Shown here piece after piece: positions 2,341-22,245 of a stretch of 35,875 nucleotides of DNA. The notes beneath the pieces are model-generated. The model was not told where the DNA came from, did not search any database, and worked only from the letters and a program-made list of their open reading frames with translations. The translations under genes and the position numbers were made by a program. Source of the DNA: Firmicutes bacterium HGW-Firmicutes-21 (GTDB lineage Bacteria > Bacillota > Clostridia > Oscillospirales > CAG-382). The stretch is from contig PGZT01000013.1 of assembly GCA_002841455.1 (NCBI GenBank), positions 1-35,875 of the forward strand. Reading direction: 5' to 3'. How positions within the stretch are numbered: the stretch's first letter is position 1; the number at the start of each line of letters is the position of its first letter.

Positions 2341-3231
2341 ATGACATTAAAAGAGGCTATGTCACACTCTGCGGAGCAAATCGAGGGTATGCTTTACACA
2401 CTGCTGACACCTATAGCGGATATAAATCATTCTAAGCTGTTTGAAGCTATGCGTTACTCCGTAATGGCTGGAGGAAAGCGGATACGCCCCTATTTGGTTA
2501 CCGAGTTTTGTGTTCTGCACGGAGGTATGGCGGAGAACTCGCTTCCGTATGCGGCAGCTGTTGAAATGCTGCACACGATGTCGCTTATTCACGACGACCT
2601 CCCTGCGATGGACAACGATGTATTAAGGCGGGGAAAGCCGACAAATCATGTTGTTTTTGGTGAAGCGACGGCAATCCTTGCGGGAGACGCTCTTTTAACA
2701 GAGGCGTTTAATGCGTTATCCTCAAACAAGCATTTGACGGCGGAGCAAAACCTTGAGGCGGTAACCGCACTTGCACGCTTCGGCGGAGTAAACGGTATGA
2801 TGGGCGGACAGCAGATTGATCTTCAAAGTGAGAATATATCCGTCCCTATCGAGGTTTTGGACGACCTTGTTTCCAAAAAAACAGCGGCTCTTTTGTCCTG
2901 CTCCTGTCTTTTGGGCTGTATTGCGGCAAATGCAAGCAGCTCGGATAAGGAAAAAGCGGTCGAATACGGTCATAACCTCGGGGTTGCCTTTCAGATTACG
3001 GATGATATTCTTGATATGGAGAGTGATAATATAACACTCGGCAAGAGCATCGGCAAGGACAACAAGGACGGAAAGTCAACCTATGTTTCACTTTTGGGGA
3101 TTGACCGAGCAAAAGCACTTGCGTATGAGCTAACGCAAAATGCTAAAAAAATTATCGGCATATACGAGCAAAACGCTTCCGCAAGGCGGCTTTTTGAGAT
3201 GTGCGACCTGTTATTGAACAGGAAAAAATAA
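2341..3231 (+). CDS. ispA: Polyprenyl (farnesyl/geranyl) diphosphate synthase
   Basis: DDLPAMDND first Asp-rich motif, GGKRIRPYL, DDILD second Asp-rich motif. Confidence 0.95.
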   Translation: MTLKEAMSHSAEQIEGMLYTLLTPIADINHSKLFEAMRYSVMAGGKRIRPYLVTEFCVLHGGMAENSLPYAAAVEMLHTMSLIHDDLPAMDNDVLRRGKPTNHVVFGEATAILAGDALLTEAFNALSSNKHLTAEQNLEAVTALARFGGVNGMMGGQQIDLQSENISVPIEVLDDLVSKKTAALLSCSCLLGCIAANASSSDKEKAVEYGHNLGVAFQITDDILDMESDNITLGKSIGKDNKDGKSTYVSLLGIDRAKALAYELTQNAKKIIGIYEQNASARRLFEMCDLLLNRKK

Positions 3232-3270: not shown

Positions 3271-3299
3271 TTGATATTTTTAAAAATATGTGATATAAT
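3271..3299 (+). promoter_or_regulatory. Promoter immediately upstream of the OLE-like RNA
   Basis: TTGATA (3271-3276), 17-nt spacer, TATAAT (3294-3299); predicted start about 3305-3307. Confidence 0.7.
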
Positions 3300-3305
3300 C
3301 CTATC

Positions 3306-3926
3306 GATGGCGCAGTATCCTAGTTAACTCGTTGTTGCTGAAAGCGTGCCTAAAAATACGCATAAAGGCAAATCGATGAAGCTCCTTGTGCTTGCTTTAT
3401 ACGCCCAGTATAGGGTGGGTGCTGGGAGAATGGGACTGTGGGCTGCCCGCAATGGCATGCGGAGAGGGACCCACTTTCCTTTGAGGCCTTATTCTCGTGG
3501 TCGAATGGTTACGGCAGCTTTTGCCGCACATATCAGCTACGGATTAAGGATTAGACCTATTACGCGGTGCATTTTAAGAATGACGCTGTGGATAGATGTA
3601 GCCTGCCTTGAGTGGTTATGGCGGATAGAGGATCATACCGGCGGCGATTAGCTACCAAAGTCGGGAATATCTCCTTTTGAAATCATCGCTGCAAAAGAGG
3701 ATTAGGCAACGGACTCGGGTTATTGAGGAAAACTCCTAGGCTGAGCACATGCGTTTATCGCATCAGGCACAATATGGATTGCAGTGCGGACTTAAAGGCA
3801 ATCAAGTCACGGCTATGGTAACATACCGTCTGCGGCTTTAAAGGGAAACCGCTTCATTGGCGACAAGAAGCAGCCGCCGGGGAAAACCAACTTGACCGTA
3901 TGCCGCAAAGTTTACATGTTGTGCCG
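3306..3926 (+). ncRNA. ole: OLE RNA (Ornate Large Extremophilic RNA)
   Basis: ~620-nt interval without a credible ORF, between ispA and an oapA-like gene followed by dxs; own promoter; many local helices, e.g. GTGGGT 3415-3420/ACCCAC 3469-3474 enclosing CCGC 3447-3450/GCGG 3459-3462, and ATGCG 3749-3753/CGCAT 3759-3763. Size and synteny match the known OLE locus. Ends approximate. Confidence 0.88.
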
Positions 3927-3928
3927 CC

Positions 3929-3948
3929 ATCAAAAGGTTCTTTTTGAT
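3929..3948 (+). other. Hairpin at the 3' side of the OLE-like RNA (ATCAAAA..TTTTTGAT)
   Basis: ATCAAAAGGTTCTTTTTGAT inverted repeat; not followed by a strong T-run, so possibly a processing or attenuation site. Confidence 0.45.
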
Positions 3949-4008
3949 ATTTAAGCATAATATAAAATCGAACAGCTAATAATTGTATTATGTAACGGAA
4001 GGAAAAAT

Positions 4009-4635
4009 ATGGGTAACAACGAACCTCCCCGAAGTATAAAAAACGGAGGAAAGTATCCTGCCGACAAGCCGAACGACATAAAAAACGGCAAAAGCAATAT
4101 CGGTCGGAAGGAGCAGCTAAAAAAAAGGTCGCAGAAACGCTGGATTATTACGGCGTTTGCTTTGTCTTTTTGCATCACGGCGGTGCTGTCGCTCGGCTCG
4201 AACGAGGTTATTTCCTCGCTCAATGTGCTGGTGGCGATACCGGTACTGCTGTTTTTTATCTTTATCGGCATTGTTTTTGACACAATAGGGTTAGCCGTTG
4301 CCGTTGCGGAGATTAAGCCCTTTAATTCCATGGCATCCCGTCGGCTTAAAACCGGTAAAAAAGCCGTGTGGCTTATTACAAATACCGAAAAGGTCAGCTC
4401 CTTCTGTAACGACCTGATCGGCGACATTGCCGGTGTTTTGAGCGGAGCTACGGGTGTGGCTATAGCCGCAAGACTCTTTTCGGGCGGAGCGAGCATATGG
4501 CTTACACTTGCGATGACCTCATTAATCGCCGCAATCACGGTGGGCGGCAAGGCAATAGGAAAGCTAATAGCGGTTGAATATAGCGAGCAGATCGTTATGT
4601 TCTCCGCAAAGGTATTATGCGGGTTCAAGCAATAA
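4009..4635 (+). CDS. oapA: OLE-associated membrane protein OapA
   Basis: 208 aa with several hydrophobic segments and a Lys/Arg-rich N-terminal tail (NIGRKEQLKKRSQKR); contains DLIGD (DxxxD, aa 135-139); directly downstream of the OLE-like RNA and upstream of dxs; good RBS (GGAAGGA). Confidence 0.82.
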   Translation: MGNNEPPRSIKNGGKYPADKPNDIKNGKSNIGRKEQLKKRSQKRWIITAFALSFCITAVLSLGSNEVISSLNVLVAIPVLLFFIFIGIVFDTIGLAVAVAEIKPFNSMASRRLKTGKKAVWLITNTEKVSSFCNDLIGDIAGVLSGATGVAIAARLFSGGASIWLTLAMTSLIAAITVGGKAIGKLIAVEYSEQIVMFSAKVLCGFKQ

Positions 4636-4637
4636 AA

Positions 4638-4765
4638 ATAAACTCGTAAACGAGTTTTTGACAAAATGCTCCGCATTTTGCGCTATACGCTTTATAAGGC
4701 AATAAACTCGTAAACGAGTTTTTGACAAAATGCTTCGCATTTTGCGCTGTACGCTATATATGTCA
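4638..4765. repeat. Two tandem 64-bp units, each with two hairpins
   Basis: ATAAACTCGTAAACGAGTTTTTGACAAAATGCTYCGCATTTTGCGCTRTACGCT repeated at 4638 and 4702; each unit has AAACTCG-TAAA-CGAGTTT and CAAAATGC-TYC-GCATTTTG inverted repeats. Confidence 0.9.
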
Positions 4766-4791
4766 ATATAAATTAAGGATGACAACACGAT

Positions 4792-6660
4792 TTGATTCTT
4801 GACAATATTAATCACCCTAATGATATAAAAAACCTTACCCAGCCCGAGCTTGAGCTGCTGTTAGACGAGCTTCGGGATACCGTTGTTCGCATTGTAGCAA
4901 AAACCGGGGGGCATCTTGCCTCCAACCTCGGCGTTGTCGAGCTTACCGTCGCACTGCACCGTGTTTTTGATTCTCCTGCCGATAAAATCGTCTGGGATGT
5001 AGGTCATCAGAGCTACATACACAAAATACTCACCGGCAGAAACCCCCGTATGGACACCTTAAGGCAATACGGAGGGCTGTCCGGCTTCACAAAACGGGAC
5101 GAGAGCGAGCACGACCCCTTCGGTGCGGGACACAGCTCAACCTCCATTTCGGCTGCCGTGGGTATTGCCTCCGCCAACAAGCTTGACGGAAACGACGGCT
5201 TTACCATCGCCGTTGTCGGTGACGGAGCATTTACCGGAGGAATGATTTACGAGGCGCTCAACAATTGCTCCGACAAGGACAGATTAATTATAATTCTTAA
5301 CGATAACGATATGTCTATCTCTCCCAATGTGGGAGGAATGAGCCGATATTTCAGACGGTTTCGCACCACGGCACGCTATTTCAGGTTCAAGCATTGTTTT
5401 AAACGCATATTCGGAGCCATTCCGTTAATCGGAAAGGGCTTGGTGGGTATAGCGAGGAGGACAAAGAACGGCTTTAAGCGGCTGCTGGTAACCGAGAACT
5501 TTTTCGAGGTTCTTGGGCTGTCCTACTACGGACCTCTCGACGGAAATAACGAAAAGCACCTTGAGCTTGTATTAAACGAGGCGAAAAATGACAAGAAATG
5601 CAGCGTTGTCCACATTTGCACAAAAAAGGGCAAGGGTTATTCGTATGCGGAGGAAAAACCCGATCTTTATCATTCGGTGAGCGGCTTCGATATCGAGAGC
5701 GGTGAAATTAAAAACGGATTAAAAAAATCCTTTTCCGATTGCTTCGGCGAGATAATCACCGAAGCGGCACAAAAGGATAAGGATATATGTGCGGTAACCG
5801 CCGCAATGAGCGGCGGAACGGGGCTGGAGAGCTTTGAGGGAGCCTTTCCTGAGAGGTTTTTCGATGTCGGCATTGCCGAGGCGCACGCACTTACCTTCTC
5901 CGCCGGACTTGCCTCACAGGGTAAAAAAGCGGTTTTTGCGGTATATTCGACCTTTTTTCAACGAGCATATGACCAGCTGCTGCACGATGCGGCGTTACAG
6001 GGAGTCCCCGTTATTCTTGCGCTTGACAGAGCGGGCTTTGTTGCGGAGGACGGCGCAACGCATCACGGAGTTTTTGATGTTGCGGTCATTAACAGCATAC
6101 CCGATACAGATATTTATTCGCCGGAGAGCTTTGAGGATATGCGTTATGCCTTCGGTAAAGCGTTTTCGGGCAGCCGTCCCGTTGCCGTAAGGTACCCAAA
6201 GGGTTCACCCGAGGAATACGACAGGTCTATATTTAAGAATATCGGGGATATGTGCTTCTGCGATTTCGGCTCATATCCGTCGGTCGCAATAATAACCTAC
6301 GGAAAAATTACCAAAAACGCTTTACTTGCGGCAGCAGAGCTATATAAATCAGGAATAAACACGAGGGTTATCAAGCTTATTTGCATAAAACCGATTGATT
6401 TTACCAAGATAACCATGCTCGCCGGCGGCACAAGCAACCTGTATATACTCGAGGAGGGCATAAAAACGGGCGGAGTCGGTGATGTTATTGCTTCTAATTT
6501 GAGCGAGAACGGCTTCCTTGAGGGTAAAAGGATAAGGATAAGAGCGATAAACGACAGCTTTATTTCCCACGGGAGCAACGAGCTTTTATATAAGGAATGC
6601 GGTTTTATGCCCGAGCAGATAGCTGCGGAGATTACGGAGCTTGTTAAGTTTGAAAGATAA
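4792..6660 (+). CDS. dxs: 1-deoxy-D-xylulose-5-phosphate synthase
   Basis: ASNLGVVELTVALH, WDVGHQSYIHKILTGR, GDGAFTGGMIYEALNN and DRAGFVAEDGATHHGVFD motifs; TTG start. Confidence 0.97.
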   Translation: MILDNINHPNDIKNLTQPELELLLDELRDTVVRIVAKTGGHLASNLGVVELTVALHRVFDSPADKIVWDVGHQSYIHKILTGRNPRMDTLRQYGGLSGFTKRDESEHDPFGAGHSSTSISAAVGIASANKLDGNDGFTIAVVGDGAFTGGMIYEALNNCSDKDRLIIILNDNDMSISPNVGGMSRYFRRFRTTARYFRFKHCFKRIFGAIPLIGKGLVGIARRTKNGFKRLLVTENFFEVLGLSYYGPLDGNNEKHLELVLNEAKNDKKCSVVHICTKKGKGYSYAEEKPDLYHSVSGFDIESGEIKNGLKKSFSDCFGEIITEAAQKDKDICAVTAAMSGGTGLESFEGAFPERFFDVGIAEAHALTFSAGLASQGKKAVFAVYSTFFQRAYDQLLHDAALQGVPVILALDRAGFVAEDGATHHGVFDVAVINSIPDTDIYSPESFEDMRYAFGKAFSGSRPVAVRYPKGSPEEYDRSIFKNIGDMCFCDFGSYPSVAIITYGKITKNALLAAAELYKSGINTRVIKLICIKPIDFTKITMLAGGTSNLYILEEGIKTGGVGDVIASNLSENGFLEGKRIRIRAINDSFISHGSNELLYKECGFMPEQIAAEITELVKFER

Positions 6661-18931: not shown

Positions 18932-19654
18932 TTATATATCGGAGTTTTTGTCCCCATACCGGTTTGGCATATTTCTCATTATGGGAATACAATTTTCACC
19001 AGCAATAATATAATGCTCGACAAGCTCAATATCATTTATCCGCAGAGCAGCAGCGATACGCTGGGTTGTGTAAATATCCTCGTTTGAGGGGATTACCGAA
19101 CCGTTGGGATGGTTATGTGCGAGGATAACCGAGCTGCAGGAATTGTTAATAGCGGCTTCGGTGACCAAACGCATTGAAAATGCGGCGGAATTAATGCTGC
19201 CCTTGTGCAGCAGTCTTTTCTCCGAGAGACCTCCGAAGGAATCCAAGCAGAGCAGATATACATGCTCCTCCCTCAATCCGGCATAGCAACCCTTTAAATA
19301 TTCGGAAGCCGTTGCCTGATCCTTGAAGGACATACACGATTCGCTCTCTCCGGCGACAAACCGCCTTGACAGCTCCGGTAGCATGGTTATCAGCACCGCC
19401 GTGTGCTGCTTGATTCCGCCTATCTTCATTAATTCGCCTGCGTCTGCCCTTAACACACCCGACAGGGTACCAAAGCGGTCCAAAAGCTCGGCGGCAATGG
19501 GGCGGGTATCGTTTCGGGGCAGCGCAAAGGACAGGAGCAGCTCAAGCAGGGTTTTGTCATCCAAATTCTCCGCACCCTCGCCCAGATACCTTTCCTTAAG
19601 ACGCTGTCTGTGAAAAAGGTGCGGATTTACTGCTTTTTTTGCCGAGCGGTTCAT
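18932..19654 (-). CDS. radC: RadC family JAB-domain protein
   Basis: LLELLLSFALPRNDTRPIA, HhH region, ILAHNHPNGSVIPSNED JAB/MPN motif. Confidence 0.95.
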   Translation of the reverse strand: MNRSAKKAVNPHLFHRQRLKERYLGEGAENLDDKTLLELLLSFALPRNDTRPIAAELLDRFGTLSGVLRADAGELMKIGGIKQHTAVLITMLPELSRRFVAGESESCMSFKDQATASEYLKGCYAGLREEHVYLLCLDSFGGLSEKRLLHKGSINSAAFSMRLVTEAAINNSCSSVILAHNHPNGSVIPSNEDIYTTQRIAAALRINDIELVEHYIIAGENCIPIMRNMPNRYGDKNSDI

Positions 19655-22245
19655 TATGAGTAGATATTAAAGGTTCCGAGGAAATAACGCTTAATCTTGA
19701 GGAAGTCGGCTCCGGTAATGCCTCCGCTGTTGTCGACATCCCCTGCGGTTAAAAATTCATCCGCAAGCGTATATGTTCCTAAGAAATGCCGTTTAACGAG
19801 CAGGAAGTCAACAGAATTGACTCGTCCGTCGCCGGAACAATCGCCGAGAACAATCACGGTAAGCTCCGAGACAACGATATCACCGTCCTTGAGCTGCAGC
19901 TTGCTTCCCGTTCCGACAAAGCTGCCCGACTTGGGAGTGCAGATAACTCCGCTTGTCGATATTTTGGAAAGAACGGTCTCGCTCGAGAGCTGGTCTGCAT
20001 TTAAATAGATAAAAGCTCCGTCAATGGTAAAACCGCTGTTATCGATTAATTCTATTGTACCGGGAATTACAACTTCCATAGTATACTCAAGCGTAATGCT
20101 GCCTGCGGAGGCGGTGAAGGTGTAGCCTGTGTCAGCGGTGTTTAGAGTATAACCGCTAATCTCGGCACCTGGGACAAGTATTCTTGCACCGACCGCACCC
20201 TTAAGGGTAATGGCGTCCGCTATCTCCGCACCCTGTGTATCGGTATATTTTACCTCAACGGTTGACAGGTTCTTGTCGTCATATACAGCCGCAAGATAGT
20301 CGCCGATTAAATCCGCATATCTTTGGTGTCCGTAAGCAGACTGGTGCAAGCCGTCGCCCGCCAGCACGAACTGCTTGAGATCCTCAAAATTACACTCGTA
20401 ATTAATATCGACAAGCCCGCAGCCGTATTTAATTGCAACTTTGCGCATTGCCTCGCTGAAGTCGAGAAGATTGTCGGTTGCGTAATTCAGCCCGTATGCA
20501 CCGGCTACATAATATCCGGCTTCGCTGCATACTGCGTTGGGGGTTACAAACACTACATCAATATTAGCTTCTGTAAGGGTTTTTGCAAAGAACTCAAGAT
20601 TTGCGGTATAATCTTCGAGGGGAACATTAGGTTTATTTTTTGAAGATGACTGCGCCTGATCGTTCATACCGAAATTAATAATAACAATATCGGCGTTTTT
20701 ATCGAGAACATCCTTTATGAACCTGCCTCTGCCCGCGTTACTGGAATCGCCGCCCACACCGGAGTTTATTATATCAGAACCAAAACGACCGCCGAGCAGG
20801 TTAACCCAGCCGGTTCTTGCCGTAAGGCTGTCTCCGAAAGCAACTATTGTCTTATTGCGAAGGTTGCTTGTAAACGCTTCCTCGCTGATAACCGCCAATC
20901 TTGCTCTGCTGAGCATACTCGGAGCCTTACCTTCTCCGGTTGCGTAAACGGATACCGTGTAGTTGTTGCCGGCGACAAGCTTATCGCTTGTTATGGCATA
21001 CGAGGTTCCGGTTACCGCGGTTTCCTTAACGACGAGCAGTCCGTCGGGAATATAGGTAGAATTGTTGATGTTAACAACATAGCCCGTCGCACCCTCAACC
21101 GCCGCCCACTGTACGGTGAAACCGGTATCGGTGGCAAGCGTTCTCTTCTCGGTCATGTTTGTTAATATGGGAGCGGCAAGTCTTGTGCCGCTTAAGGTCG
21201 GCGTATATGGAGTAAGTGCCGTATCGGGTATGTTAACGCATACCTTTACGGATGCCGTTATCGTTCCCGCGCCGAGATCCGCACCGTAAACAAAAGCTTT
21301 TGTACCGACCTTCAGTTTATCGATGTTACCTAAGGTGGAATCGGTTCCCGTACCCTGTACTACGGCGATTACAAAACCGTTTTGGGGGATTATCGCTTGC
21401 TTTGCGCTGTTGTTGTCACGCACAAGCGAGGTGCTGGAAACCACATAGCAGCTCTGGATGTGGTCCCACTCAAATATAGCGGTCTTCCACCATTGATACT
21501 TAGCCGTACCGCCGCCGCCGAATATTTCTGTTCCGTAAGCTCTTGTAAAGAGAATGGACATTCCAATTTCGTATTCAGCTGTATTAATGTGCGTTACATC
21601 CAAGGTGTACTGGAAAAGAATCGCCTCTGCTTCGTTCGGATCATACGGTGTTCCCGTCGCATCCGGTGTACCTATTTTTATGTAGGAATTGGAAACAAAC
21701 TCGGGTCTGTACCAATCTGCACCGTTTGCATCAATAACTCCGTTGGCAATGTCGGTGTTGTAAACATATGCTTTCGCACCTATCGAGAGAGTATGTGCAT
21801 ATGTACGGGAATTCAATACATTTGCGGTTTGGTAATTCGGTTTGTTTGCATATGCTTCGTTCTTGGGGTTGGATGCTTCATAAAGCGCAGGATAATTGTT
21901 ACCTGTGTTTATTGCGTACACAAAGCCGTTTTCGGGTATCTCGGTTGTCTTTTTTGCCGTTCCCCCCGTTGTTTGGGATTTTGTCAGCTTATAGCAATAA
22001 TCGCCCTCGTCCCATTCAAATGTTAAAAGAGACCACCATGCGAAATCGGTGGTTTTTCCCGCAACGGTTTCACCCGACAAAGGGGTAAGGATCACGGCGG
22101 AGCCCTCCTGAGAGCAATTTGCATCGATATGCGTTATAATTAACTTACTGTCGGTTGCGCCAAAGGCAATTCCGCTGATCGGCAACATACCCATAAGCAT
22201 AAAAACCGACAGAATAACCGCGGTAATCTTGACATGTCTTTTCAT
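19654..22245 (-). CDS. Secreted multidomain SGNH/GDSL-type esterase: signal peptide, two copies of an uncharacterised module, Fn3-like domain, SGNH hydrolase, C-terminal type I dockerin
   Basis: Signal peptide; VAFGDSLTARTGW, GVGGDSS, INFGMND, DGLHQSAYGH SGNH blocks; GDCSGDGRVNSVDFLLVKRHFLG...GDVDNSGGITGADFLKIKRYFLG dockerin repeats. Confidence 0.88.
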   Translation of the reverse strand: MKRHVKITAVILSVFMLMGMLPISGIAFGATDSKLIITHIDANCSQEGSAVILTPLSGETVAGKTTDFAWWSLLTFEWDEGDYCYKLTKSQTTGGTAKKTTEIPENGFVYAINTGNNYPALYEASNPKNEAYANKPNYQTANVLNSRTYAHTLSIGAKAYVYNTDIANGVIDANGADWYRPEFVSNSYIKIGTPDATGTPYDPNEAEAILFQYTLDVTHINTAEYEIGMSILFTRAYGTEIFGGGGTAKYQWWKTAIFEWDHIQSCYVVSSTSLVRDNNSAKQAIIPQNGFVIAVVQGTGTDSTLGNIDKLKVGTKAFVYGADLGAGTITASVKVCVNIPDTALTPYTPTLSGTRLAAPILTNMTEKRTLATDTGFTVQWAAVEGATGYVVNINNSTYIPDGLLVVKETAVTGTSYAITSDKLVAGNNYTVSVYATGEGKAPSMLSRARLAVISEEAFTSNLRNKTIVAFGDSLTARTGWVNLLGGRFGSDIINSGVGGDSSNAGRGRFIKDVLDKNADIVIINFGMNDQAQSSSKNKPNVPLEDYTANLEFFAKTLTEANIDVVFVTPNAVCSEAGYYVAGAYGLNYATDNLLDFSEAMRKVAIKYGCGLVDINYECNFEDLKQFVLAGDGLHQSAYGHQRYADLIGDYLAAVYDDKNLSTVEVKYTDTQGAEIADAITLKGAVGARILVPGAEISGYTLNTADTGYTFTASAGSITLEYTMEVVIPGTIELIDNSGFTIDGAFIYLNADQLSSETVLSKISTSGVICTPKSGSFVGTGSKLQLKDGDIVVSELTVIVLGDCSGDGRVNSVDFLLVKRHFLGTYTLADEFLTAGDVDNSGGITGADFLKIKRYFLGTFNIYS

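Follow-up and report, generated by a model that had tools for sequence, protein, structure and literature searches.

A predicted full-length OLE RNA gene beside oapA in Firmicutes bacterium HGW-Firmicutes-21, and the alternation of OLE and MpfA among its relatives

The window, the whole stretch of 35,875 nucleotides analysed here (contig PGZT01000013.1 of Firmicutes bacterium HGW-Firmicutes-21), almost certainly carries the ole gene for OLE RNA at positions 3306-3926. OLE RNA is a large bacterial RNA, located at the membrane together with partner proteins, that helps cells to cope with stress; the class has been described since 2006. Judged by its sequence, the window RNA is a genuine and ordinary full-length member of this known class at the standard locus. 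The window copy alone adds nothing to the class, and only its comparative setting is new.

A full-length match to the Rfam OLE family (RF01071) was found at 3291-3946 on the forward strand, covering model positions 1-616 of 616 with 395 bits (gathering score 50 bits) and an E-value of 8.5e-113. The first-pass annotation had proposed OLE RNA and had set a covariance-model search beforehand as the check; this search, strong covariation and the lack of a coding signal all bear the proposal out. Apart from OLE, no Rfam family scored above threshold in the window, and a search of 14 control genomes with RF01071 gave no matches. The first ~15 and last ~20 positions of the match are unpaired flanks. 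With a likely transcription start near 3305 and position 3925 closing the last pair of the model, the interval 3306-3926 describes the gene well (annotated here as 3305-3926, forward strand), and the boundaries first proposed are right within about 20 nt.

When the Rfam structure was projected onto the window RNA, 132 of the 151 mapped pairs were standard. To assess covariation, we aligned 25 OLE RNAs from the order with MAFFT, without fitting the alignment to the structure; 83.7% of its cells were paired. Double-sided changes were seen in 106 of the 151 pairs, compared with 78.5 in shuffled alignments and at most 66 when partners were slid, and none of 500 shuffles reached 106. The covariation score was 0.445, against 0.187 for shuffles and at most 0.155 for slid partners. 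P7 and upper P9 were poorly aligned and showed weak pairing. The minimum free energy of the 621 nt was -221.5 kcal/mol, against -195.2 +/- 8.4 kcal/mol for shuffled sequences (z = -3.1). These results agree with the earlier description of the interval as a structured RNA rich in hairpins.

The 3′ domain (3766-3925, forward strand, like all elements of the RNA given here) contains the long closing helix and the P12/P13 region, which we take to be the reported OapB-binding region; 84-100% of cells were paired in its helices 15-22. An extra P7 hairpin, CGGCA...TGCCG (3511-3530), is a lineage-specific insertion relative to Rfam, with similar hairpins in two congeners. In the P4/P4a hairpin (3382-3428, helix 2) 94.6% of cells were paired, and P4a is one of two regions reported to contact OapA (PMC12265935). 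P5/P6 and their joining segments (3429-3488, helices 3 and 4), which form the OapC k-turn in other species (PMC9723947, PMC12286853), are present and paired. The window RNA is thus like full-length OLE RNAs in length, secondary structure and conserved blocks, and in its locus upstream of oapA among ispA, dxs, xseAB, nusB and argR/recN. It differs in small lineage features only, namely the extra P7 hairpin and a P9.3 loop with UAGCUA instead of a GGCC core. OLE variant 1, the type of the TANB77 clade, has a shorter P7-P9 and often lacks the OapB site (PMC11332333). In contrast, the window RNA has retained P7, P8, P9.3 and P13, and OapB and OapC candidates are encoded in its genome; it is nine relatives in the family that have a shortened P9 without P9.3.

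The P9.3 hairpin (3635-3664) presents the palindrome UAGCUA in its loop (3649-3654), in register with relatives. From its sequence this is expected to be the kissing loop of the OLE dimer, termed bridge B3, for which palindromic cores GGCC, GAUC or AGCU have been described (PMC12286853). A 6-nt palindrome was in register in 18 of the 21 family RNAs with P9.3, and a 4-nt palindrome in one more; one RNA had GUCGAC shifted by a base and one had no palindrome in register. This evidence within the family is modest, since the core AGCU hardly varies. The nine family OLE RNAs in which the P9.3 kissing-loop hairpin is absent (L025 and L087-L094) have fixed changes elsewhere in common. Such changes are expected of related sequences, and so are no evidence of compensation. 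Given these nine relatives, the P9.3 dimer contact cannot be essential throughout the class.

The first-pass annotation had placed a promoter directly upstream, and a predicted sigma-A promoter is indeed found at 3271-3299 (forward strand). It reads TTGATA-17-TATAAT, matches 11 of 12 consensus positions and has a TG before the -10 element (extended -10); as it ends at 3299, the transcript would start near 3305. Many aligned relatives also have a TATAAT-like element directly upstream of OLE. Downstream of the RNA we found no convincing intrinsic terminator, and oapA follows ole immediately on the same strand, as it would if the interval were a riboswitch-like, cis-acting leader of oapA and dxs and not a free OLE RNA. 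We consider such a leader very improbable, because ole has its own strong promoter-like site, and because oapA is not adjacent in some relatives (~1.8 kb away in G006, on a different contig in G037). The OLE RNA of H. halodurans is reportedly a free, processed RNA, which also counts against a leader.

The interval could instead encode a small protein, in the 101-aa ORF at 3346-3651 or another frame, and the ORF is open in the window sequence taken alone. However, in-frame stops or frame-breaking indels were found in 29 of 29 family relatives, and substitutions relative to two congeners showed no preference for any codon position (17/17/20 and 14/14/10). The ORF had no match in Pfam or NCBIfam, and the covariation of the RNA is strong. 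Coding by the 101-aa ORF is ruled out by the broken frames and the even substitutions, and we give a small protein in any frame practically no credence. The first-pass annotation had judged this ORF spurious, and the conserved coding signal across homologous loci that it had named as a refutation was looked for and was absent. Antisense to oapA, at 3951-4676 on the reverse strand, there is a 241-aa ORF that is longer than oapA and that a mechanical ORF caller could prefer.

The OLE RNA gene lies between the neighbours claimed for it at the outset. Upstream is ispA, for farnesyl diphosphate synthase (2341-3231; NF045485, 317.8 bits, cut-off 275), and downstream are oapA (4009-4635), for the 208-aa OLE-associated membrane protein A, and dxs (4792-6660; TIGR00204, 651.6 bits, cut-off 466), all on the forward strand. 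The gene order is nusB, xseA, xseB, ispA, ole, oapA, dxs, tlyA-like, nadK, argR, recN-like, and this nusB-to-recN neighbourhood is the usual setting of OLE. ArgR has been named, from unpublished work, as a candidate OLE partner (PMC12265935). The oapA-dxs gap contains two tandem 64-bp units at 4637-4768 (ACTCGTAAACGAGTTTTTGACAAAATGC...), with three further near-copies on another contig (C37) of the same genome and none in two congeners. Elsewhere in the window, 19654-22245 on the reverse strand encodes a large protein of the GDSL-lipase type that also carries a type I dockerin and a MucBP domain, which suggests cellulosome-like parts.

In OapA the DxxxD motif (residues 135 and 139) was invariant in 21 of 21 sequences. 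The protein is 71% identical to its counterpart in the congener Eubacteriales bacterium isolate STF1_200, the only match among named genomes. A weak CNNM match in OapA scored 21.6 bits, below the Pfam cut-off of 28.4, and no other domain was found in the 208 aa. A phmmer search of OapA against the PDB gave no match; fold comparison alone gave one. With the AlphaFold model (mean pLDDT 80.6), the top six PDB fold matches were all CNNM/CorB/CorC membrane domains with probability 1.00, at a best E-value of 2.6e-3 and with none below 0.001. The predicted fold thus resembles the membrane domain of the MpfA/CorC/CNNM Mg2+ exporters, whereas OapA differs from these exporters in carrying the DxxxD motif and in lacking CBS and CorC/HlyC domains. 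OapA is CNNM-like and is not MpfA.

Candidate genes for OapB and OapC are both present in the genome, a draft assembly of 92 contigs, away from the ole locus. The OapB candidate (91 aa) is encoded after map in the ribosomal cluster. A KOW-model search at E <= 0.001 did not find OapB; the candidate surfaced at a looser cut-off and then had as its best PDB match OLE-associated protein B (7k9b, E 1.4e-8). The OapC/YbxF candidate (88 aa) is encoded upstream of rpsL and matched YbxF structures in the PDB (E 4e-5); the second L7Ae protein in the genome is YlxQ. Similarity and gene context make both proteins candidate orthologues. For comparison, OapB occurs in ~60% and OapC in ~45% of OLE species (PMC11332333). 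A degraded OLE relic that no longer functions is a barely credible reading of the interval: the window RNA scores 395 bits against 468 for the best relatives and its P7 pairing is poor, but the conserved blocks and compensated helices are all kept, OapA is intact, DxxxD motif included, and the genome has candidates for the partner genes and lacks MpfA.

An anticorrelation between OLE and MpfA across Bacillota has been reported (Fernando and Breaker, PMC11332333). We compared them in 63 genomes of the family, calling MpfA where a protein of MpfA size scored strongly as CNNM. OLE was found in 32 of the 63 genomes and such a protein in 30; 30 genomes had OLE only, 28 had MpfA only, two had both (G008 and G062) and three had neither (G013, G074 and G080, 53-82% complete). 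The alternation of OLE and MpfA in the family is nearly complete, but the two genomes with both mean that they are not mutually exclusive. Fisher tests on these counts treat relatives as independent and were not relied on. In a SecY tree covering 28 genomes, five changes were needed for each trait, and G008 was sister to the MpfA-only genus g10. Independent pairs on this tree were opposite in four of five cases, the same in none and without difference in one (p = 0.125, underpowered with four informative pairs). Both states occur within each of the genera g2, g9 and g13, with contamination of or gaps in single assemblies possible. One genome of g9 has an unusually short OLE match (G070:C36:38991-39474, 484 nt, 248 bits). 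G014 (97% complete) lacks OLE and its congener G023 has it; G014 and G025 gave no dxs match with an N-terminal query.

The distance between ispA and dxs was 15-126 nt in 11 OLE-lacking relatives, eight of them in the family, and 1,560 nt in the window. From this empty site it appears that ole and oapA are gained or lost as a unit. The fine-scale swap is consistent with overlapping jobs of the OLE RNP and MpfA. It is a real possibility, to which we give somewhat less than an even chance, that ole-oapA and mpfA serve the same task in this family and can stand in for each other, one having repeatedly replaced the other in either direction, with both-bearing genomes as intermediates.

The gene's own promoter would drive transcription of a ~620-nt OLE RNA, which might also be transcribed within a nusB-xseAB-ispA-ole-oapA-dxs run. 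By homology, the RNA would dimerise, with the self-complementary P9.3 loop as one contact among others, and dock on OapA dimers in the membrane, its folding aided by OapB (at P12.2/P13) and OapC (at the k-turn). The resulting RNP is probably a membrane device for divalent-metal and stress homeostasis, with OapA as a CNNM-like, transporter-type part. More doubtfully, the RNA might replace the soluble CBS/CorC part of MpfA-type Mg2+ exporters. That OLE RNA acts in place of CBS domains is a published speculation. H. halodurans without the OLE RNP is sensitive to Mg2+, cold and alcohols and grows poorly on some carbon sources, and suppressors of this loss lie in metal homeostasis (PMC10898510). 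As the set of parts is complete and MpfA is missing, we infer the same role for the OLE RNA of the window, whose family membership is established computationally and whose function is drawn from H. halodurans.

OLE RNA is among the largest bacterial RNAs with a biochemical role still open. If ole-oapA and mpfA do exchange, the family would be a natural experiment on the contribution of the RNA. Family members without one dimer contact make the need for P9.3 dimerisation testable, and comparison of close relatives that carry OLE with others that have an empty site, MpfA being distributed reciprocally, makes it testable whether the two systems do the same job.
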